From contig PKVZ01000075.1 of assembly GCA_003131635.1 (NCBI GenBank), forward strand, positions 1 to 44,767: a stretch of 44,767 bases of DNA, in the 5' to 3' direction. A program made the translations under genes and the position numbers. Origin of the DNA: Acidobacteriaceae bacterium. GTDB taxonomy: Bacteria > Acidobacteriota > Terriglobia > Terriglobales > Acidobacteriaceae. The notes under the pieces were generated by a model. It did no database searches. It was given only the letters and a program-made list of their open reading frames with translations, and had not been told where the DNA came from. This document shows positions 27,545 to 43,923 of this stretch, one piece after another. Within the stretch, counting starts at the first letter, position 1, and every line of letters begins with the position of its first letter.

Positions 27545-27938
27545 TGAATCATTCTCGCCGCCCTCACTCGTAGTAAAGCACTTACAGTCGGAGCCAATGC
27601 CTCTGAGTCGGACCCAGGGCCCGGACAACGACGCGCTGCATTATTCTTTTCGGCCTTCCGAGTTCGTAGTTCGTAACAGAAGCAGGTATTACAGCCACTC
27701 TTTTCGTTGTCGACCGCGACGACTTATATCTCCCAGCACAATATGGCAAGTAGCTATTGCAGAGTAACTTGTAGCGCGCTTTGGCTGGGTAACACAGTTA
27801 TATCTGTTCGGCTTTCGTAACAGACTAACGATTTATGTCCTTGTACTACTAACTACATGATAATCTTGCCCCGCCTACAGTCTACAGTCTACTCAATTTA
27901 CGACTCATGGCACACACGCTTATAAGGAGGTGTCCATA
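27545..27938. other. Island leader region before the peptide gene
   Basis: AT-richer than the surroundings, with no gene of normal size. It contains a tandem CTACAGT repeat (27875-27892, two full and one partial unit) about 45 bases upstream of the peptide ribosome site. A 25-codon frame near 27741 has no ribosome site and is not called. The peptide-gene promoter should lie here, but I could not identify it with confidence. Confidence 0.4.
27875..27892 (+). repeat. Tandem heptamer CTACAGT (2.6 units)
   Basis: CTACAGT-CTACAGT-CTAC, directly upstream of the peptide gene. Short tandem direct repeats in a promoter region can be regulator half-sites, but the size is small enough for chance. Confidence 0.45.
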
Positions 27939-28070
27939 ATGTTTAATTTCGTGACCGACTCAATCTCGTCCGGCTTGTCCACGATCAGCGGGTTCGATCA
28001 GAATCAGTCGTCTCTGCCCCACTGGTACTTCGTAGTTGGCAGCGGCTACGCGCTAGTTGTCTCCAGCTAA
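27939..28070 (+). CDS. Candidate precursor peptide, 43 aa
   Basis: ATG 27939 follows AAGGAGG (27924-27930) at eight bases, the best ribosome site in the island. The peptide begins MFNFVTDSISSGLSTISGFD, passes QNQSS, then LPHWYFVVGSGYALVVSS and stops at TAA 28070. The first half is polar and mildly acidic, like a leader. The second half is hydrophobic, aromatic and Gly/Ser-rich, like a core or a secreted signal. It has no Cys and no double-Gly site. The gene stands alone, followed by a strong palindrome and then, about 270 bases on, by an operon of three unknown proteins, two ABC systems and a peptidase. A RiPP precursor or exported signalling peptide is the most economical reading. I recognise no family. 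Confidence 0.65.
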   Translation: MFNFVTDSISSGLSTISGFDQNQSSLPHWYFVVGSGYALVVSS

Positions 28071-28087
28071 CCACCCCAACGGACAGG

Positions 28088-28109
28088 GCTTCTCACTGCA
28101 GTGAGAAGC
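28088..28109 (+). terminator. Palindromic hairpin after the peptide gene (attenuator candidate)
   Basis: GCTTCTCACTGCAGTGAGAAGC is a perfect 22-base palindrome starting 17 bases after the peptide stop, followed by TTCGTT. The T content is weak for a classic terminator. A partial terminator here would give more peptide transcript than operon transcript, as is usual for precursor peptides. It could instead be an RNA-stabilising hairpin. Confidence 0.55.
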
Positions 28110-28168
28110 TTCGTTCCCCGCACAAGGGATGGTCGTAATTCCTTGCCACCGACATTTCTGACAAAGTC

Positions 28169-28208
28169 TTGACCTAACCGAGACGCTCACATTTCATGCG
28201 AATCGCAT
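28169..28208 (+). promoter_or_regulatory. Possible promoter with overlapping palindrome
   Basis: TTGACC (28169-28174) and TTTCAT (28192-28197) are spaced 17 bases, a fair -35 and weak -10. ATGCGA-A-TCGCAT (28196-28208) is a perfect inverted repeat overlapping the -10. If real, the operon has its own regulated promoter separate from the peptide gene. Confidence 0.3.
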
Positions 28209-28270
28209 AAGTGTCAGCTTGAATGCGTTTCAGGAAGCCACTGACAAGCTAATAAGGTGATGAACCCGTT

Positions 28271-28293
28271 GAGTTAGTTACTAAAACTAACTC
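28271..28293 (+). promoter_or_regulatory. 9-bp perfect hairpin before the operon
   Basis: GAGTTAGTT (28271-28279), loop ACTAA, AACTAACTC (28285-28293). No T run follows, so it is not a normal terminator. It ends 15 bases before the AAGGAG at 28308-28313, where it could affect ribosome access or leader stability. Confidence 0.45.
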
Positions 28294-28343
28294 GCCGATG
28301 GTTTCAGAAGGAGCGGTGTCCCATTCGATACATCGAAGAGTTT

Positions 28344-29264
28344 GTGTTCAAGAAACGCGTGAAGCACGTCTCGGGTCTTACATTGGACTGGCTTTGGAAA
28401 CATGCCGAGGAATTTGGCGTGTCGCTTCAGCCCGAAGCAGGGAACGCGCTGCTTTGGCAAGTAAAGCACATCGTCGAGCTAATGACCATGCTGACTACTT
28501 TGGCAAACCATGATATTCGCGGCGGAATAATCTCAAAGTTGACCGAACGTGCTCTTACGCACGGCGCTGAATTTGATTGGCACCAGCTTGCCGCCTATGA
28601 CGCCTCAGCCGCAACCGTGGTGGCGATAGTGGCCGACTTTTTTGCATGCAACCAGCTGCCACCTCCATTTGAGGTCGAATTTGTTAGCTTCCTTCATGCA
28701 ATCGGCTTTTTTGAAGGTATGGACCGGGTTCCGTTTCGTGAAATGGATCTCGCCTATAGCCTGTCGTTAATGATTTCGCCTGAATTTCGTAAGGACCTGC
28801 CCGTCTGGTTTGAGAGTACTACCTTCGGACAGCGACAGCACATAACTCGCTACACGACGGACGATATTTACTCCGTGACTCATGCCGTGTTCTACCTGAC
28901 CAACTTTGGCCGCAGTCCACTTACCGACCTACTCGACAAGGAAACTGCCGATCGTCTTAGAAAAGAGTTGGTGGCCCTAGCCGTAGTGGTCCTGCGTGCC
29001 GATAACATCGATGTACTTGGCGAACTGCTTCTCAGCTGGCTGTTTTGTGACGTGGAGAATACGTTGTTAAACAGAATGCTGTTCCACCAGGCCTTTGAGC
29101 GCCTGCTGTCCGCAACTACTCCCGAGGGGCAGGTTGTTCCTACAATGAAACTGTTGCAGCGCGCCCAATCAGGTCAGGCGAGCTTTGCCGAGGTGTATCA
29201 CACGACGCTTGTGTGCTGCATGGTGTTTGCAGTGGCCGCCAAGAGGATGCCTTATGCTGGCTGA
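28344..29264 (+). CDS. Unrecognised helical protein A of the peptide operon
   Basis: 306 residues from GTG 28344. This start has only a close GAAGAG upstream. A better-spaced AAGGAG (28308-28313) points to an in-frame ATT at 28323, and the frame is open from 28278, so the start is unresolved. The protein is soluble and mostly helical, with LDWLWKHAEEFG near the N-terminus and a notable block YTTDDIYSVTHAVFYLTNFG near the middle, followed by a second helical half. It resembles what I remember of the uncharacterised DUF6895 family, an unverified recollection. No catalytic motif is visible. The stop overlaps the next start. A role in making or handling the upstream peptide is inferred from position only. 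Confidence 0.75.
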   Translation: MFKKRVKHVSGLTLDWLWKHAEEFGVSLQPEAGNALLWQVKHIVELMTMLTTLANHDIRGGIISKLTERALTHGAEFDWHQLAAYDASAATVVAIVADFFACNQLPPPFEVEFVSFLHAIGFFEGMDRVPFREMDLAYSLSLMISPEFRKDLPVWFESTTFGQRQHITRYTTDDIYSVTHAVFYLTNFGRSPLTDLLDKETADRLRKELVALAVVVLRADNIDVLGELLLSWLFCDVENTLLNRMLFHQAFERLLSATTPEGQVVPTMKLLQRAQSGQASFAEVYHTTLVCCMVFAVAAKRMPYAG

Positions 29265-30141
29265 AACGATCTCAGATCCAATGTTACGACTCTGTCAGGC
29301 AGAGTTCAAATGCCTTATCCAAGAGTTGGAGTCTGCGCCATCCCGGACGGCATTCTTCGATGTGGGAGCCGTAGCGGAGGTCTTGGTGCTCACGAACGGC
29401 ATCCCCGAGGCGGAAGGCTTGACGCGAATGCTATGTGACGCATCTGCCAGGTGGCTGAAATCAGGTTTGCTCGAGGATCTGCTAATGGCCCGGGTAGAAT
29501 TTGCCTACCATGTCGCGTTACTGACCTACTTAGCTCAGAGCGCTGCATCCTTCAGTCCGTCTGATGTCGAGGTTATCAGGAATCTCTCAGAGGGGCGGCT
29601 GGTGGCAAGAAGCGAAATCCCGGTGCTGCGTCAGCATCTGATAGCCGCCTACTTTTCGGGTTGCGGTATTCACACCGAGTTTGGCCAGCTCGGCCGTCGT
29701 AATCTAACTCAGATTATCGATAGACGCGTGTTGCGCGCCCGGTCCGATGAGTTTGATTTGCTGGTGCTGCTTATGTGCGCTCAGCTTCTCCAGCTTGACC
29801 GCAGCCGGGGATACCAAGGGCCACGAACCTATCCTCAAGCGCAACTGGTGCAGGCCATGCGTTCCGGAAATACAAACTGGCTCCCCGTGTTGGCTCTTCT
29901 GTGCTCGCGGTTCTTTGGTTTTCCGGGACACCTGTGCGGAGCAGCTTTCAAGAGCATGGAGGAATCCATTCCTGCTCCAGGGGAACTGTTGCCTGCTCCA
30001 CCAGGAAATCAGATTGACAGTGAATACATCGAGCGAACCGAGCGGGGACTTCGTCTTCGCAGCACGATTGCGTTAGCTCTATCCCTTGCTTTGCCAGGAG
30101 AAACTTATGGCGTCGAACAAGTTAGACCGGCTTACAACTGA
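29254..30141 (+). CDS. Unrecognised helical protein B of the peptide operon
   Basis: 295 residues from ATG 29254, which follows AGAGGATG and overlaps the end of protein A by 11 bases. It is predicted soluble and helical. N-terminal MLAETISDPMLRLCQAEFKC is followed by a helix-rich middle (FAYHVALLTYLAQSA, LIAAYFSGCGIHTEFGQLGR) and FDLLVLLMCAQLLQLDRSRGY. No signal peptide, no metal motif and no known family. The middle GIHTEFGQLGRR block may correspond to the THAVFYLTNFG block of protein A, which would make A and B distant paralogues. The 3' end overlaps the start of protein C by 35 bases. Confidence 0.72.
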   Translation: MLAETISDPMLRLCQAEFKCLIQELESAPSRTAFFDVGAVAEVLVLTNGIPEAEGLTRMLCDASARWLKSGLLEDLLMARVEFAYHVALLTYLAQSAASFSPSDVEVIRNLSEGRLVARSEIPVLRQHLIAAYFSGCGIHTEFGQLGRRNLTQIIDRRVLRARSDEFDLLVLLMCAQLLQLDRSRGYQGPRTYPQAQLVQAMRSGNTNWLPVLALLCSRFFGFPGHLCGAAFKSMEESIPAPGELLPAPPGNQIDSEYIERTERGLRLRSTIALALSLALPGETYGVEQVRPAYN

Positions 30142-30979
30142 ACAGATTGCGCTCACCAGCAAGTATCTGGCGGAGATGACGGAGCGGTTCGCTAGTCCCA
30201 TCGCTGCAATTCAGCCGCTATTTGGCAGGTGTTGCCTTGCTACACTCCCTTCGTCTATTCCTTGTTGGGATACCCTTACGCGCGAGGTTGCTTGGGTTGC
30301 GGCCGGGATCCTGAGCCATCCGGACCCGGCAAGTTTGAGCTTGGACCCATTACCTATCATTGAGATCTATACGATGGTAAAGGGGATGGACCGGGAGGTG
30401 CCAGAAATGCGCCAAATCCTGGAACGGGTTGGCCCCGATCTCGATGCGCTGAGCCAAGAAGTACGCTCGACAGGTCGAGTACGGCAGATCACTTCCGCGC
30501 TTTCGAAACTTGGCTTCCCAAATCAGCTTGCAAAGCCTACCAAAGAAGCTAAGAACTTACTGCGTGAAAAGGAATCCTGGTTCAGCGCACCTGCTCTCCA
30601 ACTGGCGGATCTAGCCGACCACCTGTTAGCCGACGATATTCCACTCGATGAGACCGACACGAAGATTCTCTCGCTGATTGCCCTGGGCGAACTGCGAAAC
30701 TATCACCTCGATATCGGCTGTAAGCTGCTTCGCACGGTGCTCCAACTCGGAGTCCCCGGTGAAGAAACGCGTGACGGCGTTGACTTCATCGCGCTCCAGC
30801 GCAGGCGCGATGGCCGCTACGGATTCCTGGATCGCCTGGCCGAGAAACCAGAGCAGACAGCCGATCCGGATACGGCCCTGTTTTTGCCGATGACACTCAA
30901 CGCCGCCTGGTTGTTCAAGACGGAGGCCGCTTCCATGGCCATGTCTTCGGCATTGGCGGCGGTGGGGGAGACCGCATGA
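30107..30979 (+). CDS. Unrecognised helical protein C of the peptide operon
   Basis: 290 residues from ATG 30107, chosen because it follows CCAGGAG. Predicted soluble and helical. The C-terminal half has YHLDIGCKLLRTVLQLG and then FIALQRRRDGRYGFLDR. An Asp-Gly-x-Tyr-Gly-Phe turn of this kind occurs in alpha/alpha-toroid proteins such as terpenoid cyclases and prenyltransferases, but the catalytic residues of those enzymes are not seen. It ends in ATGA overlap with the exporter start. With A and B it forms a trio always ahead of the exporter here. Its activity is unknown. Confidence 0.72.
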   Translation: MASNKLDRLTTEQIALTSKYLAEMTERFASPIAAIQPLFGRCCLATLPSSIPCWDTLTREVAWVAAGILSHPDPASLSLDPLPIIEIYTMVKGMDREVPEMRQILERVGPDLDALSQEVRSTGRVRQITSALSKLGFPNQLAKPTKEAKNLLREKESWFSAPALQLADLADHLLADDIPLDETDTKILSLIALGELRNYHLDIGCKLLRTVLQLGVPGEETRDGVDFIALQRRRDGRYGFLDRLAEKPEQTADPDTALFLPMTLNAAWLFKTEAASMAMSSALAAVGETA

Positions 30980-32745
30980 GAGAAATCGTCAGCCTGCTAA
31001 AGCTCACGCGGACTCAGTTGCGAACCTATGGCATAGCTCTGCTGGCCTTGACGGTGGGAACCGTGACTGTGCTGTTCGTCCCGCCTTTATTCGGGCGCGT
31101 TCTTAACGCGTTCCCGGGCCTGGCAGAAGGAAAGAATGTACTCCTGGTTCGGCATTCTTTACTGCTTATTGCGGGCCTGATCTCGCTCGACGCATTGGCC
31201 ACAGTGGCATACTCATTCCTGGTCGCCATCGCCTCGGAGCGGATCATCAACGAACTGCGGGCCCGATTCTTCCGAAACCTGCTGGGTCAGCCGCTCGATG
31301 AGCGCTCTCCCAAACACCTTGGCCAGATCGCTTCCGAATTTGCCTCTGACCTGGCTCTGGTGCAGGATGGCTTCTCCGGGACTTTGCTGAACTTTTTGCG
31401 TCATAGCATGTTTACGATCGGAAGTATCTGTGCTCTTTTGTACATCGATCCTAAGTTGACTCTGGTAGCCTTTGCAGGCGTGGGCATGTTCGGAGGGTTG
31501 ATCGTCTACTTCATTAAACGAGCCAACAAGGCCATTGTTTCCGTCCAGCAATACCGCGCCAAGGTGATGAGCCTGTTGCTGGAAGGCGCATACAATGCAT
31601 ACATCGTACAAGCCTACGCGCGAACCGACTATCTTAGCAGGCGCTTCAACAAGGGGCTGGATGAGATGTTTCGGCGTGTGCGCAGCTTCCTGCTGGTAAC
31701 CTCTTGCATCAGCCCGGTGTCGCTCGTGCTCTTTTCGCTGGTGATGACTGGGGTGGCGTTTTACGGAATACGCGAGTTGAGGATGGACTCCATCACGGTG
31801 CAGCAGTTGGTCACATATTTTTCTTACGCGCTGGTCCTGATCTTGTCGGCCAGTCAGGTCGGGTACCTGGGTGGGCGGCTGCGCCAGGCGAGTTTGATGT
31901 TCGCCAAACACCAAGCGCTGCTGGTTTGCGCCAACGGGCCAGATACGGCGGCAGGAGCCATCAACCCCGGTGCGCGAGTAGTATCCGTCGGGCCCCATGG
32001 CTTCATCGTCCAAAACGTCACGTTTTGTTACCCGGACAAACAATCGCCAGCGCTCACCAATGTTTCTTTTACCATTGAACCGGGACGGATCAACGCGATC
32101 ATCGGCGAAAGCGGGGCGGGCAAGTCCACCCTAGCGGCGCTACTTTGCGGAGTATACCGGCCTCAGTCGGGATTGCTCCGCATCACCGCGGAAAACGGAC
32201 CTGCGATCGATGCCGCACCTGGAGATTTCCGCCAGGCCATTGCGCTGGTGCCGCAGGAGCCCTTTTTGTTTGCGGCGAGCATCACCGAAAACATTACCTT
32301 CGGGCGCGAAGAAATTTCCGAAGCTCAGGTGCGCCAGGCGGCGATCGCCGCCCGCATCCATGATTTCATCATGACGCTGCCTCAAGGCTACCGCACGGTG
32401 ATTCAGGAAGGCGGGAAGGATCTGTCGCGGGGCCAGAGGCAGCGAATCTCCATTGCCCGCGCGCTGGCTGGCAGCCCGAGCATCATGATCCTGGACGAAG
32501 CGACAGCATCTCTGGACGCTATCAGCGAACGAGCCATCAAAACGGCGATCGAGGATTTGCGGGGGCGCGTCACGTTTGTGGTAATCGCCCATCAAGGCGC
32601 GCTGTTGTCCGATGTGGATCACCTCGTCGCGTTGCAGATGGGTGAAGTCCTATTCGAGGGCCACCCAAGCCAAATTGATGCGAACAGCAGCGTACGGGTG
32701 CTTTCCGCTGCTTTCCAAGGTGTTGCAGCAAACGCGCTATGTTAA
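30976..32745 (+). CDS. ABC exporter, fused membrane and ATPase domains (peptide-type)
   Basis: 589 residues. Six membrane helices in the first about 310 residues, then the nucleotide-binding domain: Walker A GESGAGKST (about 377), Q-loop LVPQEPFLFAASITENI, signature LSRGQRQRISIARAL (about 481), Walker B IMILDEATASLD and H-loop IAHQG. This is the half-transporter layout of type IV exporters (MsbA, LagD, McjD). There is no N-terminal C39 peptidase, so it would not clip a double-Gly leader itself, in keeping with the precursor lacking one. It starts by ATGA overlap with protein C. The likely job is export of the product of the 27939 peptide; that link is contextual. Confidence 0.88.
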   Translation: MREIVSLLKLTRTQLRTYGIALLALTVGTVTVLFVPPLFGRVLNAFPGLAEGKNVLLVRHSLLLIAGLISLDALATVAYSFLVAIASERIINELRARFFRNLLGQPLDERSPKHLGQIASEFASDLALVQDGFSGTLLNFLRHSMFTIGSICALLYIDPKLTLVAFAGVGMFGGLIVYFIKRANKAIVSVQQYRAKVMSLLLEGAYNAYIVQAYARTDYLSRRFNKGLDEMFRRVRSFLLVTSCISPVSLVLFSLVMTGVAFYGIRELRMDSITVQQLVTYFSYALVLILSASQVGYLGGRLRQASLMFAKHQALLVCANGPDTAAGAINPGARVVSVGPHGFIVQNVTFCYPDKQSPALTNVSFTIEPGRINAIIGESGAGKSTLAALLCGVYRPQSGLLRITAENGPAIDAAPGDFRQAIALVPQEPFLFAASITENITFGREEISEAQVRQAAIAARIHDFIMTLPQGYRTVIQEGGKDLSRGQRQRISIARALAGSPSIMILDEATASLDAISERAIKTAIEDLRGRVTFVVIAHQGALLSDVDHLVALQMGEVLFEGHPSQIDANSSVRVLSAAFQGVAANALC

Positions 32746-33422
32746 CTCAGCAGGAAGTGTCGAGCGCGGGATTAAACCTGGAAGGGCTCTCCATATCGGC
32801 CCCAGACGGCCGCGCACTGATAAGTTCGGCGAACATGTCGTTCTACCCCGGCGTGACGGCTTTGACTGGGCCGAACGGGTGTGGAAAATCCACCCTGCTG
32901 CGTGCCATTGCGATGCTGCACCCGGTAGATGGGGGCACTATTTCGCTTGGCCGACTAGAAGGAAGCAGCGACCGGTCCGGTTTTCTGTCGCAGCTTGTCT
33001 TCATGCCGCAGAATTTCCCGGTCTATCCCACAATGACGGCGCAGGAGTTCCTCGAGTACCCGCTTCGTCTTCGCGGGGCAGCGACCGCGCAGGCACGGGC
33101 AATAGCGGCGGAATGGCTCCAGACGGTCGGCTTACAGTCTGCCGCTAAAGCGCTGTGCGGCACCTACAGTCAAGGGATGCGGCAACGCCTCGGCCTGGCC
33201 TGCGCGCTGCAATTGGATGTGCCCCTTTATCTTCTTGATGAGCCTTTCGCTGGAGTGGATGCCGAATGGCGCGAGGTCATGTTGGACCTGCTGTTCCGTC
33301 TCTGTGCGGATCGCATTGCCCTGATCAGTACGCACCATGTCGATGAGGTGCTCCGGCGTGGCGCCAATCATATTCAGCTATCTCAGGGACAGTTGGTGAT
33401 GGCATGTCCAGCCATGCGTTGA
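32739..33422 (+). CDS. ABC transporter ATPase
   Basis: 227 residues, overlapping the exporter end. Walker A GPNGCGKST (about 43-51), Q-loop FMPQNF, signature YSQGMRQRLGLA (about 143), Walker B LYLLDEPFAGVD, and STHHVDE at the H-loop. This is the CcmA/NatA-type ATPase that drives separate ABC-2 permeases. Its partners should be the two membrane proteins that follow and overlap it, the permease at 33404 and the M1 membrane peptidase at 34987. Confidence 0.9.
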   Translation: MLTQQEVSSAGLNLEGLSISAPDGRALISSANMSFYPGVTALTGPNGCGKSTLLRAIAMLHPVDGGTISLGRLEGSSDRSGFLSQLVFMPQNFPVYPTMTAQEFLEYPLRLRGAATAQARAIAAEWLQTVGLQSAAKALCGTYSQGMRQRLGLACALQLDVPLYLLDEPFAGVDAEWREVMLDLLFRLCADRIALISTHHVDEVLRRGANHIQLSQGQLVMACPAMR

Positions 33423-34990
33423 AACAGTTCAACATTCCCGAAGGGACTAGACTGGCCAGCAATTTCCGCGCCGCGTGCGCCGTTGTGTGGACAGAACTTA
33501 TTCTGAATCGGCGCGATACCAATTTACCTGTAATTCTCGCGATTCTCGCAGGCCTGTGCCTGTTGCTCACTCCGGCGGAGACTGCTCCTTACGCCATCCT
33601 TACTTTTGGCGGCCTGAAACCGCTAATGTCTGCCGGGACTCGCTTGATCACCGCCGGAATTGTGCTCGATCTGCTGCTGTTTCCTTTTCTATTGTTGAGG
33701 CTGGGTGCGGGCTATGCGCGTGACCGTCAGCTCGGGATGACTGCTTTCGTCAGCTCTTGTCCCCTGGATCGCTCCCGGATGGTTGCCGCCAGAATCCTCG
33801 CGAACACGATACTCGTCTTTGGGTTCTACTCCGTGCTGTTGGTCTTGCTCTCTTGCGCTGTGGCCTCGCGCGAGAAACAAGCGCCCGCTGCATGGGCAAT
33901 AGCGGCATTTCTTCTCGTCACCATTCCGTCGGCTTTTCTGAGCCTGCCGCTGGGGGCGGCGCTGGACCGCTGGCTTGGCGGAAACCGGCTTCTGCATGCA
34001 GTCGGCGCCTTTGCTGTGTACCTGCTGTTGCTCACGAGTGCTGTATTTGCCGGGGCCGATGCCTTTGGCTTGCTCCTGCTTAAAGAGAATTGGCCGGCGT
34101 CGGTGAGTTCGACATCCTTTTCCATCGGTCTGGTGACCGCTCCACGGGGCGGCGGCATTTCCTGGAATATCGAGACGATTCCGCGCGCATTTATTTACCG
34201 CCAGGGCTTCCTGATTTTCGTAGCCATTCTTGCGGCGGCGGCAGTCTCATGGCTGGCCCGTTTCAATGCCACTGGCAAAGATGCGCGGATCCAGGGCGCG
34301 GAGTATTCGCCAGACTCGGCCCCGAGCGCCACTTGGGATGTGGTTCGGCTTAGGCCGCGCAAGATAGCTTATGTTCAAGGAGCTTGGGCATTGGCTCGAC
34401 GCTGGTTTACACGATCACCCTGGAGCTGGATGGCCGCGGTCGTGGCGCTCGTTCTATCGGCTATGTATCCCCACGCCCCAAGGACCGGCGCGGTTGCGGC
34501 GCTGCTCATCCCATTGTTGATCGCAAATCGCGGTCATCTCACTGCGGATGGTGCGCTTCGCGATCTGGAACTCTCTTCAGCGGCCTTGTGGCGCCCGACT
34601 CCTGCGCTGTTTACCAGCATCGTGCTGGCCAGTATCACGGTTCTGGCAGCTCTGCCGGTGTTGCTTGCCGCGCCAATATTCGTGAGCCTGCAATTGCTCC
34701 TGGGAATCTTCACCGCGTGTTTGTGGTTGACGTGGACGTGCGCTCAACTGAACCGTCCTTTGCTCGGAATTTCAACCTATGCGTTGGTTTGGTATCTCGA
34801 AAGCTTTTCCGACCTGCCACCAGGGCTCGATCTAATGGGCCTGCGCGGAAGCAACGGGCTGGCTTTTGGAATTACCGCGGCCGCCTGCCTGGTTCTCGCT
34901 ATAGCTTGCTTTAGAGGAGATCAAGCCACCTCCCAGCGATCAAGATCCTTTGGCAGCGCACTCAAGCTATTCCTCAGGAGGACCGGGTGA
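33404..34990 (+). CDS. ABC-2-like permease, about 12 membrane helices
   Basis: 528 residues, overlapping the ATPase gene. Very hydrophobic and evenly spread (LPVILAILAGLCLLL, VFGFYSVLLVLLSC, LLLLTSAVFAGADAFGLLLL and others), with two halves of about six helices each. It has no ATPase motif. By position it is the membrane partner of the ATPase at 32739. It overlaps the M1 peptidase gene by four bases (GTGA), so the three are probably made together. The family is not recognised beyond 'ABC permease'. Confidence 0.78.
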   Translation: MSSHALKQFNIPEGTRLASNFRAACAVVWTELILNRRDTNLPVILAILAGLCLLLTPAETAPYAILTFGGLKPLMSAGTRLITAGIVLDLLLFPFLLLRLGAGYARDRQLGMTAFVSSCPLDRSRMVAARILANTILVFGFYSVLLVLLSCAVASREKQAPAAWAIAAFLLVTIPSAFLSLPLGAALDRWLGGNRLLHAVGAFAVYLLLLTSAVFAGADAFGLLLLKENWPASVSSTSFSIGLVTAPRGGGISWNIETIPRAFIYRQGFLIFVAILAAAAVSWLARFNATGKDARIQGAEYSPDSAPSATWDVVRLRPRKIAYVQGAWALARRWFTRSPWSWMAAVVALVLSAMYPHAPRTGAVAALLIPLLIANRGHLTADGALRDLELSSAALWRPTPALFTSIVLASITVLAALPVLLAAPIFVSLQLLLGIFTACLWLTWTCAQLNRPLLGISTYALVWYLESFSDLPPGLDLMGLRGSNGLAFGITAAACLVLAIACFRGDQATSQRSRSFGSALKLFLRRTG

Positions 34991-37281
34991 TTAGAACAAG
35001 ATCCAAAGCCATCGCCGCCATCGCCGCCTTGATACTCATCCCCGCGGCCTACTTTACGGTCGTAGCCTATCTTCTTTCACGCAGCACGCTTCAGATGTAC
35101 GGGTTCCCCGTCTCGCCGGATTTGCGCACCGCCATCGAGATCGCTCTTCAGACGTGTCCTATGTTGGCTGCGCTATTCATGATTCTGGGCTCCTCATTTC
35201 GGGAACGGCTAATCAAGCGCCTGGCGCTGCTTTTCTCGCCAGCTAACAAACGCGCTTATACCGTCGCCATGCTGACGGTGAATCTGTTTCTGGCTGCCGC
35301 CACCACATTTCTGACCGCCGCCGCCATCGTAAGCGTCTGTGGCATGCGGCGAAGCGTGGTGCATCCAGGGACCTTGCTCTGGGTAGCTTTTGAATTTGCC
35401 GTCGACCTCACGCTCATCGGAATTTTCACCGTGTTCCTTTATTCCCTCACCCGCCGAGTCTGGGCGACGTTTCTGCTATTTGGCGCGTATGCCACGGTAG
35501 TGGTTTTATTCGGCACCAAGTGGGGAGTCACTTCATTTATCGGATTTGCGTCCTCAGTACCGGTGCAACTCACCAGTTACTCCAGCTTGCCTCTGTATGA
35601 CATGGCGGGATGGCTCTTTCGCTTCTATTGGATTGCAGTGGCAGGCGTACTGTTAGCGATCTTGCACCGGTTTTCGCGGCCGCCGGAGCCGCTGGTCGTC
35701 ACGGTTTACCAGCAGTGGCCGGCCCCGGAGATGAAGAGATGGAAACGCGCGATCGCAGCCGCATGTGCCGGTTGCCTGGCAATCGCGGTCTGTCTATTTC
35801 AAGTTCAGCAGTACGCGCTGTCCAAGTACCGAGGTGTTTCGCCGCGGCGGCTCGACGCTATGCTTTCTGAAGTTCCCGGCGATGCCAGGTTGCGGATTAC
35901 CGATTACGATCTTCAGCTTACCTACCGGCCAGATCAACAAAACGTCCGCGTTACCGGCCGGCTTACGCTCCATAGTGAGGAAAGCTCGACGCGAGTCGCT
36001 TACTTCCTGCTTCCTTCGGTGATGACGCTGGACCATTTCGAACTTCAGGGAGCCGGAGCCTACCAACTTACCAGCTTGGGTAGATATGTCCGTATAGAAT
36101 GGGCGCCTTCCTTCCCCGCGGGCAGTCGAGCCGAGCTTCGTTACTCGGGAACCATCCGCCCGGCAGGACCATTTGACCTTACTTTGCAGGCCAAGCTTCT
36201 TAAAGAAGCATTTTTCTTCACAGATTCCGACATTCTAGTCGCTCCTCGGCGGTCTTCCTGCCTCATTTCAAATTCATCCCTTCAGCCTGAGCGCACAGAT
36301 TCCTGTGAAACCGAAAACTACACGATGAGTGACCTTGCAACCGGTACGATTCGCGTCGCTGCGCCTGCCGGCTTTATCGCCGTCGGTCCTGGCGACCGTC
36401 TCGGTGAATCCGAGGGGCAATCGACGTTTCGTGTAGCAACGCCTCAGATGACAACGTTTATGGTCGCCTGTGCCCGCTTTGTGGAAACGTCGACGGCTTC
36501 CACGGATGGGCTTCCCGCCGTGCATGTGTATCGGGCGGCGCTTGATGGCAGGGAGCAAGCGTCGATAGCGAGATCGGTCCTTTCCTTCTATCGGAGATAT
36601 TGGCCTCGTTACCAGTTGCCGGAGCTTCGGATCGTCGAAACTCCAACCCCGCTGGGTGAAGCGGTCTCATTTGACGGTGTCGTGGAGATTAGCGACCGGA
36701 TCGTACGGAGCCGCGATCCGGTGTCCGGTGAGAGCAGCAATCTGGCGCAATTTGTCCTGGCGCACGAAATCGCGCATCAGTGGTGGGGCTATCAGGTAAT
36801 ACCCTCTAAGTCGCCGGGGCGGTTATTTGTGCTTGAATCATTCGCACAATTCGCTGCGTATAAGTATCTTGAATCCGGCGGCATCATGACTGCCGGGGCA
36901 GCGATCCAAAGCGAGAAGAGTCGCTATCAGCGGGCGCGCGCGCATTCCGCGAAGAATGAAGTCCCTTTGCCGTTGCTGGGGCAGGACCTGGAACTCGCTT
37001 ATCACAAGGGCCCATTCGTGCTGCTATCGCTCGACCAGACGTTAGGCGATTCCCTAATGGACCGTTTTGGCGATTTGATCAGACTCTACAGGCAGCAATA
37101 CCGCAGCCCTGCGAGACCCCAGCAGATTGTCGAAACTCTTATTGATGGGCTGCCCGCGTCAAGCCGAGAGAACGCCCGTTCTGTGCTATATGCCACGGCC
37201 GCGCCACCTCAAGCCGAGGTTGTGTCGGCGAAAGCAGGCAGTTCACAAATTCCACAACATAATAGTAAGGATCGGAAATAG
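34987..37281 (+). CDS. Membrane-anchored M1 family metallopeptidase (permease-fused type)
   Basis: 764 residues from GTG 34987, after AGGAGGACC. The first about 270 residues hold roughly seven membrane helices resembling an ABC-2 permease. The rest is an M1 aminopeptidase: the zinc motif HEIAHQWWG (His593, Glu594, His597), the third ligand Glu617 in LESFAQ, and the catalytic Tyr in AYHKGPF. The distance from the second His to the third ligand is one residue longer than in PepN, as I recall for permease-fused M1 proteins of Bacteroidota. The catalytic half should face the periplasm. The exopeptidase GxMEN motif of classic M1 enzymes is not obvious. It could trim an exported peptide, or the fusion could be a transport part. 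Confidence 0.83.
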   Translation: MIRTRSKAIAAIAALILIPAAYFTVVAYLLSRSTLQMYGFPVSPDLRTAIEIALQTCPMLAALFMILGSSFRERLIKRLALLFSPANKRAYTVAMLTVNLFLAAATTFLTAAAIVSVCGMRRSVVHPGTLLWVAFEFAVDLTLIGIFTVFLYSLTRRVWATFLLFGAYATVVVLFGTKWGVTSFIGFASSVPVQLTSYSSLPLYDMAGWLFRFYWIAVAGVLLAILHRFSRPPEPLVVTVYQQWPAPEMKRWKRAIAAACAGCLAIAVCLFQVQQYALSKYRGVSPRRLDAMLSEVPGDARLRITDYDLQLTYRPDQQNVRVTGRLTLHSEESSTRVAYFLLPSVMTLDHFELQGAGAYQLTSLGRYVRIEWAPSFPAGSRAELRYSGTIRPAGPFDLTLQAKLLKEAFFFTDSDILVAPRRSSCLISNSSLQPERTDSCETENYTMSDLATGTIRVAAPAGFIAVGPGDRLGESEGQSTFRVATPQMTTFMVACARFVETSTASTDGLPAVHVYRAALDGREQASIARSVLSFYRRYWPRYQLPELRIVETPTPLGEAVSFDGVVEISDRIVRSRDPVSGESSNLAQFVLAHEIAHQWWGYQVIPSKSPGRLFVLESFAQFAAYKYLESGGIMTAGAAIQSEKSRYQRARAHSAKNEVPLPLLGQDLELAYHKGPFVLLSLDQTLGDSLMDRFGDLIRLYRQQYRSPARPQQIVETLIDGLPASSRENARSVLYATAAPPQAEVVSAKAGSSQIPQHNSKDRK

Positions 37282-37282
37282 T

Positions 37283-39793
37283 ATGAGCATGAATCAGCAA
37301 AAGGCAAGCGCGTGGCGCAGCCGCTCTTTCTCCTGGATATCTCACATCCGTCAGGACATTGGGTTCAGCCTTCGCGTCCTGATCAAGCATCCCACGCTGG
37401 CTGCGATTCCCATGCTTTCGACAGCAGTCGGAATCGGTGCTTGCTCTCTGATCTTCGCCGTAGCCAACTTCGCTCTGTTTCGGCCCTTACCGGTCGCTTC
37501 CCCGCCGACGCTGATGAGTATTACAAGTGGCAACGCGAAAACCGGCGAGATGGGGAACGCCATGTCGTACCCGGATTTCCTGGATCTAAGCAAGGCGCGG
37601 TCCTTTCAAAACATTGCCGCCTACTTTCCAATGATGCCCGCTGCCATCGCGGTTAACGCGAGCGAACCGCGGCGCTATTGGGGGACGATTGCCTCGGCCA
37701 ACTATTTCGACGTGGTGAGTTGCGGGTTGTCGCTGGGCCGAGGTTTCGACGCGGAGCTCGATGACACCCCAGGCGCGGCCCCCGTGGTCGTGATAGGCCA
37801 TCGTCTTTGGATCGCTCTTTTTAGCGCGGACCCTGGTGTCCTGGGCCGTACCATCCGGTTGAACAACCGCAGCCTGACAGTAATTGGTGTGGCGCCTGCC
37901 CACTTCGTGGGCACAGACGTGGGACTTGCTTCCGACTTTTGGATTCCCTTCTCACTCCGCGACCTGGTCAACCCGGTGCTGCCCCCATCTCAGCTCGATA
38001 ACTTCGCAGATCGAGATGCCCAATGGCTTTTCGCAGTGGGACGCTTGCGGGAGAGGGTCACCAAAGAGCAGGCGGCGGCGGAATCAAAAGTGATTGCCGA
38101 GGGCACGGCTGCCGCCTACCCGGCGACAAATAAGGATCGTACCTTCCACGTGGAACGCGCCGGTCAATTAGCGCCGGCGCTGCGCCATGCGATCGTCATT
38201 TTCTTTACTTTGCTGATGATTATCGCCGCCCTCGTATTGCTCACGGCATGCGCCAATGTCGCGAATTTGCTGCTCGCCCGGGGTTATGCACGGCATAAGG
38301 AGACCACGATCCGTCTGGCTCTCGGTGCGGGGCGCTCCCGGCTGATCGCACAACTTCTCACAGAAAATGTGTTGCTCGCCTTGCCCGGCGGTTTGCTCGG
38401 TTGCATCATCGCGTACGCTGGCGCTCACGGCTTGAGACGCTTGCGCCTCCCCATCGAATTGCCCGTAGATCTGGCCATCTCGCTGGACTGGCGGGTGCTG
38501 TCCTTCTGCGCAGCGCTGTCGGTACTTACGGGATTAGTCTTCGGGTTGGCGCCGGCGCTAAAGCTCACCCGGCAAGGTCTGGTGGCTGGGTTGGCCGGTC
38601 AGTTTTCGGAACAGGTTCGGACCCGCTGGTTTGACGCGAGAAACATTCTGGCGATCACGCAAATTGCAATTTGCGCAGTCCTGCTCACCTTTGCCAGTCT
38701 GTTTTTCCGCAGTCTGGAATCTTCCCGGTCCGCAGACACGGGAATGGCTCACCGCAACGTTGGACTCATAAGCTTCGATCCCGCTCTGCAGTTAACTGCG
38801 GCGGAAAGGGACCGCACTGCGGAAGCTGTGTTGCAAACCGTACAGTCGATCCCCGGCGTTCAGAGTGCGGCACTGACATCCTCCGTGCCGCTAAGTCTGG
38901 CGGGCGTTTCCGGCTCAGTCACGTCGGGCGACAAAGCCGCAACCGGAGATAGCCGGCGGACCGAGGCTGACATCTACGAAGTGTCGCCTGGATTTTTCGA
39001 TACTCTCGGTATTTCGTTCCTTGCCGGAGAGGATTTCCGGCGTGGTCAGAATCAAGACGATGTTGCGATCTTAAACTTGGCCGCCGCGAATAAATTGTTT
39101 CCGGGAGAGAATGCCGTCGGTCGCCAGGTTCAAACCGATGGGAAACCCCGCCGGGTGATCGGCCTGGTTGCGACCAGCAAGTCGCGCAGTATTGTGGAGG
39201 AACCGCGCCCATGCATCTATCGTCCACTCTCGATCGGAAACCTGCATTCGATTACCGGCGTCACGCTGCTTTTCCGCAGCATGGGAAATCCGCTGAATCA
39301 CATGCGCCGCATCTCCGATGCTCTTCGTGGAGTTGATCCAGGAGTGGCGCTATTCGATATCCGGACGATGGACGAGCACCTCGCCAACGCCCTGCTTTTC
39401 CAACGCGTCACGGCTCTTCTCTTTGGAGTAACCGGACTGATTGGACTGGTGATCGCAGCCCTCGGTCTATACGGGGTAATCAGTTTTCTGGCAGTGCGGC
39501 AAACCAAGGCAATCGGCATTCGCTTGGCGCTCGGAGCAAGCCGGCGACAAGTCGTTGTCGGGGTTCTCCGCAATGGCATACCCCTGACCATCTCAGGGGT
39601 GTTGGTGGGACTTGGTGCCGCCTTTCTCGTCGCGCGGGGAGTCGCTGCTTTCCTCTACGGCGTGGCCCCAACTGATCCGATTACGTACCTGGTGGTCCCG
39701 CTTTTGCTATCGGCTATTGCGCTGGCGGCTTGCGCGTTGCCAGCTTTTCGTGCGGCGAATGTTAATCCCCTCGATAGCATACGCTACCAGTGA
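37283..39793 (+). CDS. ADOP-type MacB-like ABC permease
   Basis: 836 residues. ATG 37283 follows the M1 stop by one base, and a second in-frame ATG is at 37289. Layout: N-terminal RQDIGFSLRVLIKHP, one helix, a large periplasmic MacB_PCD domain, three helices (FFTLLMIIAALVLLTACANV ending the first repeat with ANLLLARGYAR, RLALGAGRSR), then a second periplasmic domain and the final FtsX domain (LIGLVIAALGLYGVISFLAV, GIRLALGASRRQVV). The duplicated architecture without its own ATPase is that of the 'acidobacterial duplicated orphan permease' family. The ATPase partner is unknown; the one at 32739 is a candidate. It ends the operon. Confidence 0.9.
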   Translation: MSMNQQKASAWRSRSFSWISHIRQDIGFSLRVLIKHPTLAAIPMLSTAVGIGACSLIFAVANFALFRPLPVASPPTLMSITSGNAKTGEMGNAMSYPDFLDLSKARSFQNIAAYFPMMPAAIAVNASEPRRYWGTIASANYFDVVSCGLSLGRGFDAELDDTPGAAPVVVIGHRLWIALFSADPGVLGRTIRLNNRSLTVIGVAPAHFVGTDVGLASDFWIPFSLRDLVNPVLPPSQLDNFADRDAQWLFAVGRLRERVTKEQAAAESKVIAEGTAAAYPATNKDRTFHVERAGQLAPALRHAIVIFFTLLMIIAALVLLTACANVANLLLARGYARHKETTIRLALGAGRSRLIAQLLTENVLLALPGGLLGCIIAYAGAHGLRRLRLPIELPVDLAISLDWRVLSFCAALSVLTGLVFGLAPALKLTRQGLVAGLAGQFSEQVRTRWFDARNILAITQIAICAVLLTFASLFFRSLESSRSADTGMAHRNVGLISFDPALQLTAAERDRTAEAVLQTVQSIPGVQSAALTSSVPLSLAGVSGSVTSGDKAATGDSRRTEADIYEVSPGFFDTLGISFLAGEDFRRGQNQDDVAILNLAAANKLFPGENAVGRQVQTDGKPRRVIGLVATSKSRSIVEEPRPCIYRPLSIGNLHSITGVTLLFRSMGNPLNHMRRISDALRGVDPGVALFDIRTMDEHLANALLFQRVTALLFGVTGLIGLVIAALGLYGVISFLAVRQTKAIGIRLALGASRRQVVVGVLRNGIPLTISGVLVGLGAAFLVARGVAAFLYGVAPTDPITYLVVPLLLSAIALAACALPAFRAANVNPLDSIRYQ

Positions 39794-40271: not shown

Positions 40272-41717
40272 TTAGGCAACCAAAGGTGACGACTCCGTGG
40301 CCTGGATCGGTAAAGTGAAATGAAAGGTTGCACCTCGCCCGTCGTTGGATGTCGCCCACAACCGGCCGCCATGCGACTCCCCAATGGAGCGACTGAGGGC
40401 CAACCCCATGCCGCTGCCCTGCGGCTTGGTGGTAAAGAACGCAGAAAAGATCTGATCCATCTTCTCCGTTGGCAACCCCACGCCCGTGTCACTGACCGAG
40501 AACTGGAGTTGACCGTCCTGCAGTTCCGACTTCACCGTAAACTCTCCGCCTGCGTCCGTCATAGCTTCGATGGCGTTGAGCATGAGGTTCATGAACACCT
40601 GCTGCAGTTGCACGCGGTCGGCCATAATTTCGGGCAGGTCGGCTGCAAGTTCCGTTCGCACTGCCACCGATGATCGGGTCGCCTCGCCATCCAGCAGGGT
40701 AAGAATCTCCTGGATAATTCCGTTCACGTCTACCAACTCTCGTTGTGGAGGGGACTTCTTGTAAAACGAACGTATCCGATCGATGATTTCGGCCGCACGA
40801 TTCCCGTATTTGTCGATTTTGCTTGCCGCGGCACGAGCCCGGTCAAGATTGGGCGGCTCATGCGCAAGCCATTCAATGCAGCTGTTGGCGCTGGTGATGG
40901 CTGCAGCGATGGGCTGCTTGATTTCGTGTTCCAGCGACGCCGCCATTTCCCCCAACGTGCTCACGCGGTTGACGTGGGCTAGATCCGCCTCGAGCTGTCG
41001 CAGCCTTTCACGCTCGTTCTCAGCGCGCTTGCGATCTTCAATGTCGGTCGAGATGCCATACCACTTGACGATCTTGCCTCCCGAGTCCCGTAGCGGCACA
41101 ACTCGGCTCAAGAACCAGCGATACTCAGCGTCCGCCGCACGCCGGAAACGCACTTCATGCTCGAAGGGCTCCCCAGACGCCACCGAAGCGCCACGTCTCT
41201 CCACATAACGCGGCAAGTCTGCAGGATGAACGGCGGCTTCCCATCCTGAGCCCATCGTCTTCTCCCTGGACAAACCCGTATATTCCACCCAGTGATGATT
41301 GACGAAGTCCACTGCGCCGTCGGGCAAAGCGGTCCAGGCGAATGTTGGAATGGTTTCAACCACATCCCGCAGCTTCTTTTCCTGACGCCGCAGTTGCCGA
41401 ACGCGAAATCGATAAGCCCCATAAACCAAGGCCAGGAACGCCACCACACACATTGCGCGGAACCACTTCGTCTGCCAGTAGGCCGGAGCAATCACGAAGT
41501 CCAGTGTCGCGCCCTGCTCGTTCCACACCCCGCTGCTATTGCACGCGATGACACGAAACCGGTATTTCCCGGGACCCAGTTCCGTATAAAAAGCTTCGCG
41601 ACGAGTGCCCGCGTCCTGCCAATCGCGATCATGCCCGTCAAGTCTGTAGCGAAACTTCACCTTTTGGGGAATGAGAAAACTCGGCGATGTGTAGCCAATT
41701 TGGAGATCACGAGTCAA
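40272..41717 (-). CDS. Propeller sensor kinase, C-terminal part (Y_Y_Y-TM-PAS-HisKA-HATPase)
   Basis: 481 residues if it starts at TTG 41717. It opens inside a Y_Y_Y domain (VKFRYRLDGHDRDWQDAG ... GKYRFRVIACNSSG), then one membrane helix (WFRAMCVVAFLALVYGAYRF), a PAS (TIPTFAWTALPDGAVDF ... IVKWYGISTDIEDRK), His[15 protein letters not shown] (His264) and an ATPase (MNLMLNAIEAM, DTGVGLP, GSGMGLALS). In intact relatives this part is continuous with the propeller encoded just upstream. Moving one base back at 41717 joins LQLP-L to LTRDLQIGYT without a gap. The TTGA overlap could in principle allow re-initiation, but there is no ribosome site. I read it as a frameshifted single gene (mutation or sequencing error). 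Confidence 0.8.
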   Translation of the reverse strand: MTRDLQIGYTSPSFLIPQKVKFRYRLDGHDRDWQDAGTRREAFYTELGPGKYRFRVIACNSSGVWNEQGATLDFVIAPAYWQTKWFRAMCVVAFLALVYGAYRFRVRQLRRQEKKLRDVVETIPTFAWTALPDGAVDFVNHHWVEYTGLSREKTMGSGWEAAVHPADLPRYVERRGASVASGEPFEHEVRFRRAADAEYRWFLSRVVPLRDSGGKIVKWYGISTDIEDRKRAENERERLRQLEADLAHVNRVSTLGEMAASLEHEIKQPIAAAITSANSCIEWLAHEPPNLDRARAAASKIDKYGNRAAEIIDRIRSFYKKSPPQRELVDVNGIIQEILTLLDGEATRSSVAVRTELAADLPEIMADRVQLQQVFMNLMLNAIEAMTDAGGEFTVKSELQDGQLQFSVSDTGVGLPTEKMDQIFSAFFTTKPQGSGMGLALSRSIGESHGGRLWATSNDGRGATFHFTLPIQATESSPLVA

Positions 41718-43702
41718 AGCGGAAGTTGAAGACTTTCTTGTGGTTTATATTGCTTTCGGTCAGCAACAACGGCCTCGACGTAGACCGGCGGTACAGTCCC
41801 GCCCCCCGAAAGGTGTGACGGGTCGATCATCTGAAGAACCACATTGTTTACAAACCACAGGCGCCCGTCGGAAGATTTTGCGGCCGGATTGAACGTCACG
41901 AAACCCGGTAGAGCTCCGTCCAGCGTACCGAATACTCGCGCCTGAACGATGGTATCTGGATGAATCCGCCATCGTTGAAAGTCCGTGGCTGCAATCTCTA
42001 CAAATCCACAGGGAGTATTGAGCCATAGGTTTTTGTTGTCGTCCAAGGCGAAGCCAGTGACCCCGTCGCAAGGAAGCCCGTTTTCTTTGCCTAGGCGCTG
42101 ACCTTTCCCTGCGCGAAGCATCACAAGTCCGTTATCGGATGCGGTGATCACTGACCCATCGGGATCAACAGCAATCTGATGGGCAGTCTTCTCTGCCCAC
42201 GAACCCTTCAGCTTTAAGGGAAATGTGCGCGCAATACCTTCCCGGAAAAATGTCAAGTCACCTGTGAGTGCGCCCAGCCAAATTCCGCCCTTCGGGTCTG
42301 CCGCAATGGCATTGGCGGGCGGAAGTGGAGGCTCGGGGAACTCCTCGCGCACCTTGAAGTCGCGGATGCGGATGAGTCTTCTTTGAGTGCCTTTGCATTC
42401 CGCCCAAATATTGCCGTCAACATCCTCGGTAATGCCGAGTACCAATCCCAGTGGGTGATGATCAAGCTCCGAAATACGCCGGAAGCGGCCATCTTTGTAG
42501 ATGAAGAGCCCATCGTCAACGCCAACCCAAATGTTACCTTGATGGTCTTCGAGCAATGAACTAACTTGCTCTCCAGGCACGCGAACTGAGGGAACGGCTC
42601 CGTTTCGAATAAAATCAAGAGTGCCAAGATTTGCCACCCAGACCGTCCCGTCTTTCGTGGCCATGACTGAATTGGCGCCATCTCGTCCAAGCCCCTCGGA
42701 AGTCGAAAAGGTAGTGATCGGAAGATCGCGAAAATTGTCAATACCGTTGGACGTGGTCGCCCAGACTATACCGTCGCTGCCTTCGTAAAGATCGAAGACA
42801 GCGTCGCTGGATAAGCCGTCCGCTCGTCCAAAATGTTCGACTGTTTGGTCGTGAATGCGGTAGATGCCATTCCCATACGTTGCGATCCAGAGGTTCTTAT
42901 CGGAATCTTCGATCATCGCCTCGATATTGAGCTTACTTCCGTCGAAGTTTGGCAGAACGACCGGCGTCAGAACGCCATTCCGGAATCTTTCAAGCCCACG
43001 TCCCGGCCCCGTCGACTCCATTCCGACCCATAAGGAACCGTCGGAATTCCTGACAAGACTGTGGATGGGGTCTTGCCCCACGTTTGATCGAAGCTGCTGA
43101 GGGCTGTAGATCTCAGGGGCTGCACCCATTTTCCAATGGAGCAATGACGTGTCGCCTCCAATCCACAATCCTCCTTTCCCGTCAGGGATGATTGGAAGCG
43201 GGTTGTGAAACGTTATACCCTCTGCCTTCCCGAAGCAGCGGATTCCTGTATCCGTCGCGTGACATAGAATTCGGTCCGTACTCCCTAAAGAAAGGGCCCA
43301 CACAGATCCGTCAGAATCTTCGTGCATGCCGGTAATTACCGGAAGATCGTAATGGGAAATCACGACATTGTCCCTGACGTGAACGAGCTCGCTTTGAGTG
43401 GCAATCCACATTTCTCCCAATCGCACACTGAGAAGTCTGCGAATTCGTGCAGCCGCGATCGGAGGCGACCAGGGAGTAAAACGGATGCCGTCAAAACGCC
43501 ACACGCCACGCTTGCCGCCCACCCAGAGATATCCCTCTTTTGCTTGTGAAATCCAAAACGGAGTGTTTGGCAAGAATCCGTCTTGTATTCGCCACGCACT
43601 ATGCGCGTATTGGGTAAGGCGTTTGTTCGGATCCAACGCATTAGCAACGTTTAACGTGAGCCACAGCGAGAACACGCAAACCAGAAACGATTCGCAGAAC
43701 AT
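41714..43702 (-). CDS. Propeller sensor kinase, N-terminal part (two-component regulator propeller)
   Basis: 662 residues from ATG 43702. The frame is open upstream, but this start gives a signal peptide, MFCESFLVCVFSLWLTLNVA. The mature part begins LTQYAHSAWRIQDGFLPNT, the classic entry of Reg_prop sensors. It then has repeated blades such as EGYLWVGGKRGVWRFDGIRF, DSDKNLWIATYGNGIYRI, DGIVWATTSNGIDNFR and KGGIWLGALTGDL. About a dozen such blades form two beta-propellers in the periplasm, as in the BT4663-type sensors that bind polysaccharide fragments. It stops at TGA 41714, exactly before the Y_Y_Y domain. See the downstream part for the frameshift. The Reg_prop blades look intact, so decay, if any, is recent. 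Confidence 0.85.
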   Translation of the reverse strand: MFCESFLVCVFSLWLTLNVANALDPNKRLTQYAHSAWRIQDGFLPNTPFWISQAKEGYLWVGGKRGVWRFDGIRFTPWSPPIAAARIRRLLSVRLGEMWIATQSELVHVRDNVVISHYDLPVITGMHEDSDGSVWALSLGSTDRILCHATDTGIRCFGKAEGITFHNPLPIIPDGKGGLWIGGDTSLLHWKMGAAPEIYSPQQLRSNVGQDPIHSLVRNSDGSLWVGMESTGPGRGLERFRNGVLTPVVLPNFDGSKLNIEAMIEDSDKNLWIATYGNGIYRIHDQTVEHFGRADGLSSDAVFDLYEGSDGIVWATTSNGIDNFRDLPITTFSTSEGLGRDGANSVMATKDGTVWVANLGTLDFIRNGAVPSVRVPGEQVSSLLEDHQGNIWVGVDDGLFIYKDGRFRRISELDHHPLGLVLGITEDVDGNIWAECKGTQRRLIRIRDFKVREEFPEPPLPPANAIAADPKGGIWLGALTGDLTFFREGIARTFPLKLKGSWAEKTAHQIAVDPDGSVITASDNGLVMLRAGKGQRLGKENGLPCDGVTGFALDDNKNLWLNTPCGFVEIAATDFQRWRIHPDTIVQARVFGTLDGALPGFVTFNPAAKSSDGRLWFVNNVVLQMIDPSHLSGGGTVPPVYVEAVVADRKQYKPQESLQLPL

Positions 43703-43923
43703 GATAGTCCCGCGCTCTCGAGGTGCACATGGCGCGGGGCAGCGTGGAATCGAGGGTAACCATGGCGCCCCGAATTTTACCAAACCTGACCTTCGTCCGG
43801 ATGTAATGGCCACATAGGCCGACAGCATCCCGCGTTCATCCACGAGAGTGCGCAGTTGCCTCTGCAAGATGGTCCGCGCGGTGCCCCCAAATCCGCGCAG
43901 CATTATGGATTCTGTCAGCCGCC
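43703..43923. other. Divergent promoter region, propeller kinase / outer-membrane protein
   Basis: About 220 bases between divergent starts. It should contain both promoters. No clear operator or -35/-10 pair seen. Confidence 0.4.

Follow-up and report, generated by a model that had tools for sequence, protein, structure and literature searches.

The nearest described counterpart of the system considered here belongs to lasso-peptide biosynthesis: an article in ACS Catal announces in its title a distinct DUF6895 family epimerase in lasso-peptide modification (Shi et al., 2026, doi 10.1021/acscatal.5c08590; cited in a 2026 review, PMC13352647). In the literature searched, DUF6895 appears only as the subject of that lasso-peptide study, the accession PF21836 was not found, and no title or abstract start described the operon reported below. 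Another lasso-peptide epimerase, MslH, is metal-dependent according to its title and, according to its abstract, acts on the end of a RiPP precursor (PMC10406935).

The window (the whole stretch of DNA analysed, 44,767 nt) is one contig of a 5.3-Mb assembly of 308 contigs. Between 27939 and 39793 it does contain, on the + strand, what the preliminary description listed: an ORF of 43 codons preceded by a strong ribosome site, then a hairpin and eight closely packed genes, here designated A through H. This soil-type bacterium seems to produce a 43-residue peptide, modify the tail with an enzyme of the little-studied DUF6895 family, and export the product; comparable pairs of enzyme and peptide genes occur in several bacterial phyla. 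We think it somewhat probable that the locus is a RiPP-like DUF6895 operon: A, together with C and B, would alter the tail HWYFVVGSGYALVVSS, most likely by epimerisation, D would export the product, and E, F and G would export it and trim it or protect the cell. What the sequences show directly is the gene content, the homologies, the predicted fold of A and the recurrence with a peptide gene; the epimerisation, the residues changed, the complex, the export, the trimming and the biological role are all things that we infer.

The precursor peptide gene (27939..28070, +) encodes 43 aa, MFNFVTDSISSGLSTISGFDQNQSSLPHWYFVVGSGYALVVSS, and would be translated from its own strong ribosome-binding site, AAGGAGG (27924..27930, +), 8 nt upstream of the ATG. 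As is typical of RiPP loci, this short precursor gene adjoins that of its proposed modifying enzyme. Between the peptide gene and the enzyme genes is a 10-bp hairpin (28087..28110, +; folding dG -15.3), which none of 200 shuffles equalled (z -3.62); within an 80-nt stretch it is less pronounced (z -2.78, matched by 2 of 200 shuffles). It has no T run, and a terminator scan of the sequence does not include it. It is possibly an attenuator or RNA-stability element, and as such might set the ratio of peptide to enzyme.

A (28344..29264, +; 306 aa), the proposed peptide epimerase, had been taken for an unknown protein, one of three unknown helical ones with B and C. A Pfam search of its product identifies it as DUF6895 (PF21836; E=4.5e-39, 135 bits against a curated cut-off of 23.8), and C is a distant homologue of it, so that the three are not unrelated unknowns; only B is a true orphan. 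A carries E45, R132, Y176, T179, H180, D223, E227, Y285 and H286 (H180, D223, E227, Y285 and H286 being read directly in its sequence). Among 37 relatives, H180, E45 and E227 are retained in all, D223 in 36, Y176 in 35, H286 in 34, and Y285 and R132 in 33 each. A also has all 12 invariant columns of the 26 aligned sequences, by construction.

An AlphaFold2 model of A, with 25 relatives in the alignment, is all helical (pLDDT 93.7), a predicted alpha/alpha toroid. Comparison of the model by VIA-align returns alpha/alpha toroids (Z 14.9-16.9 in the best 50 matches listed), with class II terpene cyclases, sugar 2-epimerases and glycoside hydrolases tied among the matches listed; Foldseek against the PDB gave no match at E<=0.001, and the sequence of A matches no solved structure below E 0.4. 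The conserved residues fall on predicted helices 35-55, 130-143, 172-185, 222-234 and 281-301; in this helix list they occupy, from residue 130 on, alternate long helices, as would be expected for the inner ring of the toroid. MslH probably has a different fold from this toroid.

The toroid fold does not show a function, and the epimerase reading takes its lead from the article title, which sets an epimerase beside A by family only. Taken together, the toroid with its conserved residues, the epimerase reported by title for the family, the conserved hydrophobic tail of the peptide, and a partner protein stripped of the same residues make epimerisation of the tail the most likely chemistry, with a chance slightly better than even. 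The toroid would act on HWYFVVGSGYALVVSS through the conserved set, A being most likely an acid/base epimerase working without a cofactor and converting one or more L residues to D. A different DUF6895 chemistry within the same operon logic (a cross-link, a cyclisation, or binding and delivery of the tail), with epimerisation a speciality of the lasso branch, is less likely but deserves real weight: A is only 18-26% identical to 25 aligned relatives, the best structural matches are cyclases as well as epimerases, and peptide tails vary between groups. The conserved His, Glu, Asp and Tyr are common to the family, however, which argues for a single chemistry.

The partner C (30107..30979, +; 290 aa; ATG at 30107, overlapping B by 35 nt) is DUF6895-like by profile comparisons. 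An iterated C profile reaches DUF6895 itself, and a small comparison of C and A profiles aligns the two (probability 59). In 18 loci, C relatives follow a DUF6895 gene or are fused to one (fusions in L005, L006, L036, L070, L098 and L111); genes in GC-rich DUF6895 loci were located by frame searches. At the aligned positions, none of 19 C proteins keeps H180, E227 or H286, the last being replaced by Thr in every one; 15 of 34 rows were left out of this count on account of contamination by A-type frames. With the conserved His and Glu gone, C looks, from its sequence, like a non-catalytic partner of A; it would then be a structural component, perhaps the half that holds the precursor.

B (29254..30141, +; 295 aa; best start ATG 29254, overlapping A by 11 nt) would be a further accessory. 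It has no match in Pfam, PHROGs, PADLOC, PDB sequences or plasmids, only an E 0.12 match in NCBIfam, and a best match of E 0.21 in ten DUF6895-bearing genomes (the Pfam, NCBIfam, PHROGs, PADLOC, PDB, plasmid and ten-genome scans used a start at 29248, two codons upstream of the ATG). Profile comparisons of B with C and A are weak, a set of six sequences gives E 0.02-0.03, and its model is unusable (pLDDT 38.5). In the two Eremiobacterota contigs discussed below, L038 and L035, a single gene occupies the slot between A and C; its products (234 and about 250 aa, respectively) resemble one another and show no detectable relation to B.

The genes that follow also overlap their predecessors, D by 4 nt, E by 7, F by 19 and G by 4. 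D (30976..32745, +; 589 aa) is by Pfam and NCBIfam an ABC exporter with fused membrane and ATPase domains (ABC_membrane from residue 20, plus ABC_tran), with no C39 peptidase domain in its Pfam list; it would export the product. E (32739..33422, +; 227 aa) is an ABC ATPase by Pfam. F (33404..34990, +; 528 aa) is a membrane protein without a Pfam match, probably an ABC permease. G (34987..37281, +; 764 aa) combines a membrane part with a Peptidase_M1 domain (PF01433, E=2.4e-8, 34.3 bits against a cut-off of 27.7), having HEIAH at 593-597 and Glu617 with 19 residues between; the M1 motif has 18 between HExxH and the downstream Glu. E, F and G together would form an ABC transporter with an M1 peptidase domain, which might trim the peptide or degrade it for self-protection.

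H (37283..39793, +; 836 aa), whose ATG lies one base past the G stop, is an ADOP permease (TIGR03434, 735.3 bits against a cut-off of 622.3); since it is one of six over the cut-off in its own genome, it is perhaps merely a neighbour of the operon. Farther along on the - strand (40272-43987) is a two-gene split sensor with a 4-nt overlap, comprising a Reg_prop beta-propeller protein and a Y_Y_Y-PAS-histidine kinase protein.

Two loci of the same genus as the window (L152 and L153) have an E-like ATPase (33-36% identical) followed by a frame ending in a G-like M1 domain (26-27%). There the permease and M1 parts form a single frame of 1229-1308 aa, whereas in the window F and G are separate, and F does not match the first half of that frame. 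Given these resemblances of E and G, the unit from E to G may, on sequence grounds, be a general one recruited here.

Scanning genome contigs with a DUF6895 alignment confirmed 246 places, and the best 80 of them were retained as loci. Among these best 80 of 246, the gene order A, B slot, C, D, E, F recurs in L038 and L035, with identities to the window of 26-28% for D, in the same place, 34-36% for E, and 24-26% over part of the length for F, these last being weak relatives. In L038 the next gene, in place of G, encodes an M16 membrane peptidase; in L035 a gene with HSLEH begins in the G position and runs off the contig. Of the expected operon in relatives, the exporter genes thus recur with a membrane peptidase gene next to them, and it is the family that departs from expectation: the peptidase slot is kept although its occupant in L038 is M16 rather than M1. 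The recurrence of both the order and the peptide tail in two Eremiobacterota contigs exceeds chance expectation. The whole operon was seen in just three genomes (those of the window, L038 and L035). DUF6895 exceeds its cut-off in 1 of 61 relatives (the window's own genome), 10 of 396 genomes of the phylum, 9 of 399 of the class, and 6 of 149 of L038's phylum; F likewise is present in 1 of the 61 relatives, again the own genome, and absent from the other 60. Given this rarity, we take the operon for an isolated acquisition within its genus.

DUF6895 also occurs in a different setting. In two Dictyobacter loci (L040 and L043), DUF6895 and C lie inside a gas-vesicle cluster, which in L040 includes, by Pfam, two Gas_vesicle proteins, a Gas_vesicle-GvpK protein, two GvpL/GvpF proteins and an ArsA ATPase. 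Tails such as EWGLLMASGHWILIWRR close four proteins of L043; L040 has three such proteins and a further one in a shifted frame. In the peptide gene directly upstream of DUF6895 in L040 (9541-9903), tail and start are in different frames, unlike that of L043, so that either the gene or the assembly carries a frameshift.

These loci bear on another, improbable explanation, by which the 27939 peptide would be a small regulatory or structural protein, A, B and C chaperone-like partners of it, and the transporters would serve another substrate. The Dictyobacter tail motif is found at the ends of proteins of 106 to 412 aa in a cluster without the transporters, and the E-F-G genes resemble the general ATPase and permease-M1 unit of the same-genus genomes, as this would have it. 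In the window, though, the genes overlap from A through G, and the Eremiobacterota keep the order with D, E and F included. An origin in defence or phage was also considered and rejected: six of the proteins had no PADLOC match, and four no PHROG match.

L038 has a 44-aa ORF with an AGGAG in the same place as the window peptide, and L035 a peptide frame there, cut by the contig end. The two have ENFS-DA-Q and DW in common (score 65, reached by none of 20,000 shuffles). A profile of both ranks 27939 at the top of the 618 window ORFs (E=0.0017, the runner-up having 0.29), and a five-core profile that includes Dictyobacter tails does the same (rank 1 of 618, E=0.0016, next 0.51) and also finds two Dictyobacter tails outside it (E=0.00043 and 0.065), the cores of both profiles having been chosen with the resemblance in view. 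Pairwise, the L035 peptide scores 42 against 27939 (6 of 20,000 shuffles do as well). The summed score of 27939 is attained by a single ORF among the 2886 of 14 other loci, the DUF6895-linked peptide of L062. Other comparisons did not single 27939 out: the L038 peptide scores 31 against it, a value that 218 of 20,000 shuffles attain, that three other window ORFs exceed and that a fourth equals; an eight-core profile gives it E 0.31, tied with an unrelated ORF; and a full-length profile of 15 peptides matches four window ORFs and misses it. In the alignment of those 15, 27939 does not have the helical leader present in many other DUF6895-linked peptides. By these two profiles, the tail of the 27939 peptide is shared with both Eremiobacterota relatives that carry the same operon, which supports the preliminary reading. 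That the 27939 ORF is non-coding, with A the first gene of the operon and the hairpin region its leader, is highly improbable: the frame is short, next to a hairpin, and missed by several profiles, but it has AAGGAGG 8 nt upstream of its ATG, and its tail, first of 618, matches both Eremiobacterota peptides in the same place.

The association of A-type genes with a short peptide gene extends beyond this operon. Two fixed patterns find an upstream peptide frame in 67 of 80 loci (the best 80 of 246), SP[PS]xPRPK in 63 and GYVLAWx[RK]YVLVV in 4, against 68 occurrences of both patterns in all six frames of these loci; A homologues are therefore not routinely without one. Weaker additions by eye (L034, L035, L037, L038, L043, L044, L053, L057, L077 and L108, with L040, whose tail is in a shifted frame) bring the count to 78 of 80. 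In the other two, L074 (cut by the contig end) and L105, no upstream peptide frame was found.

The tails differ between DUF6895 groups. In L004 (10130-13985) and in Streptomyces loci among L039-L113, a peptide with the terminal sequence SPPTPRPKKG is followed by a 231-aa protein, C-like by eye only and without a Pfam match, and two DUF6895 genes; L004 also has a beta-lactamase-fold serine hydrolase. An acidobacterial group (L141, L142, L143 and L145) has a peptide with DEPWxFFCGTMRYFIHIYR or the like directly upstream of DUF6895. In L057 (9123-9554) and L144 (7607-7987) the upstream gene encodes a protein of 143 and 126 aa, respectively, with RR close to its start, a hydrophobic segment, and the tail AWL.I..CGSNA.AL. 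In L020 (6704-9924), a phytanoyl-CoA dioxygenase-like protein comes after the peptide, DUF6895 and C.

As to class, the preliminary description was right that the standard RiPP enzymes are absent: the nine operon proteins have no lanthionine (LanM/LanC), YcaO, radical SAM or lasso domain in Pfam or NCBIfam (for D and E in NCBIfam, among the matches listed). The lasso B and C proteins (a protease and an asparagine-synthetase-like cyclase) in particular have no Pfam or NCBIfam match among the nine, and the motif SGGxDS, looked for crudely in frames of at least 150 aa in 90 DUF6895 loci, was absent. The further idea that the class would be new holds insofar as DUF6895 appears here without lasso proteins; it does not extend to the family of A, which already has a lasso-peptide epimerase, as reported by title. 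Judging by sequence, we rate the locus as a RiPP-like cluster with DUF6895 as its sole recognisable modifying enzyme.

More speculatively, and with confidence that falls short of an even chance, DUF6895 and its stripped paralogue C may constitute a stand-alone system for modifying peptide tails in Acidobacteriota, Eremiobacterota, Chloroflexota, Bacillota, Cyanobacteriota and Actinomycetota, putting D residues on tails of the W-x4-[GA]-S-[GS]-x-x-(hydrophobic)3 type in secreted peptides and in the Dictyobacter gas-vesicle-cluster proteins. If so, DUF6895 would be a marker enzyme for a wider group of peptide clusters, ones that genome mining for lanthionine, YcaO, radical SAM or lasso genes would miss. 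Since the operon names a substrate peptide, a partner protein, and residues to change, a role for DUF6895 outside lasso clusters is directly testable.

In fold, then, A resembles the AGE-type sugar 2-epimerases and class II terpene cyclases, alpha/alpha toroids like itself (Z 14.9-16.9), at identities of 6-13% (both among the best 50 matches listed). In its proposed role it resembles MslH, which is, by its abstract, a peptide epimerase that works at one end of a RiPP precursor (PMC10406935). In family it goes with the lasso-cluster epimerase titled as DUF6895 (Shi et al.; PMC13352647), from which, so far as the title describes that system, the window operon differs in having no lasso protease or cyclase domain, in having the partners C and B, and in having another peptide.
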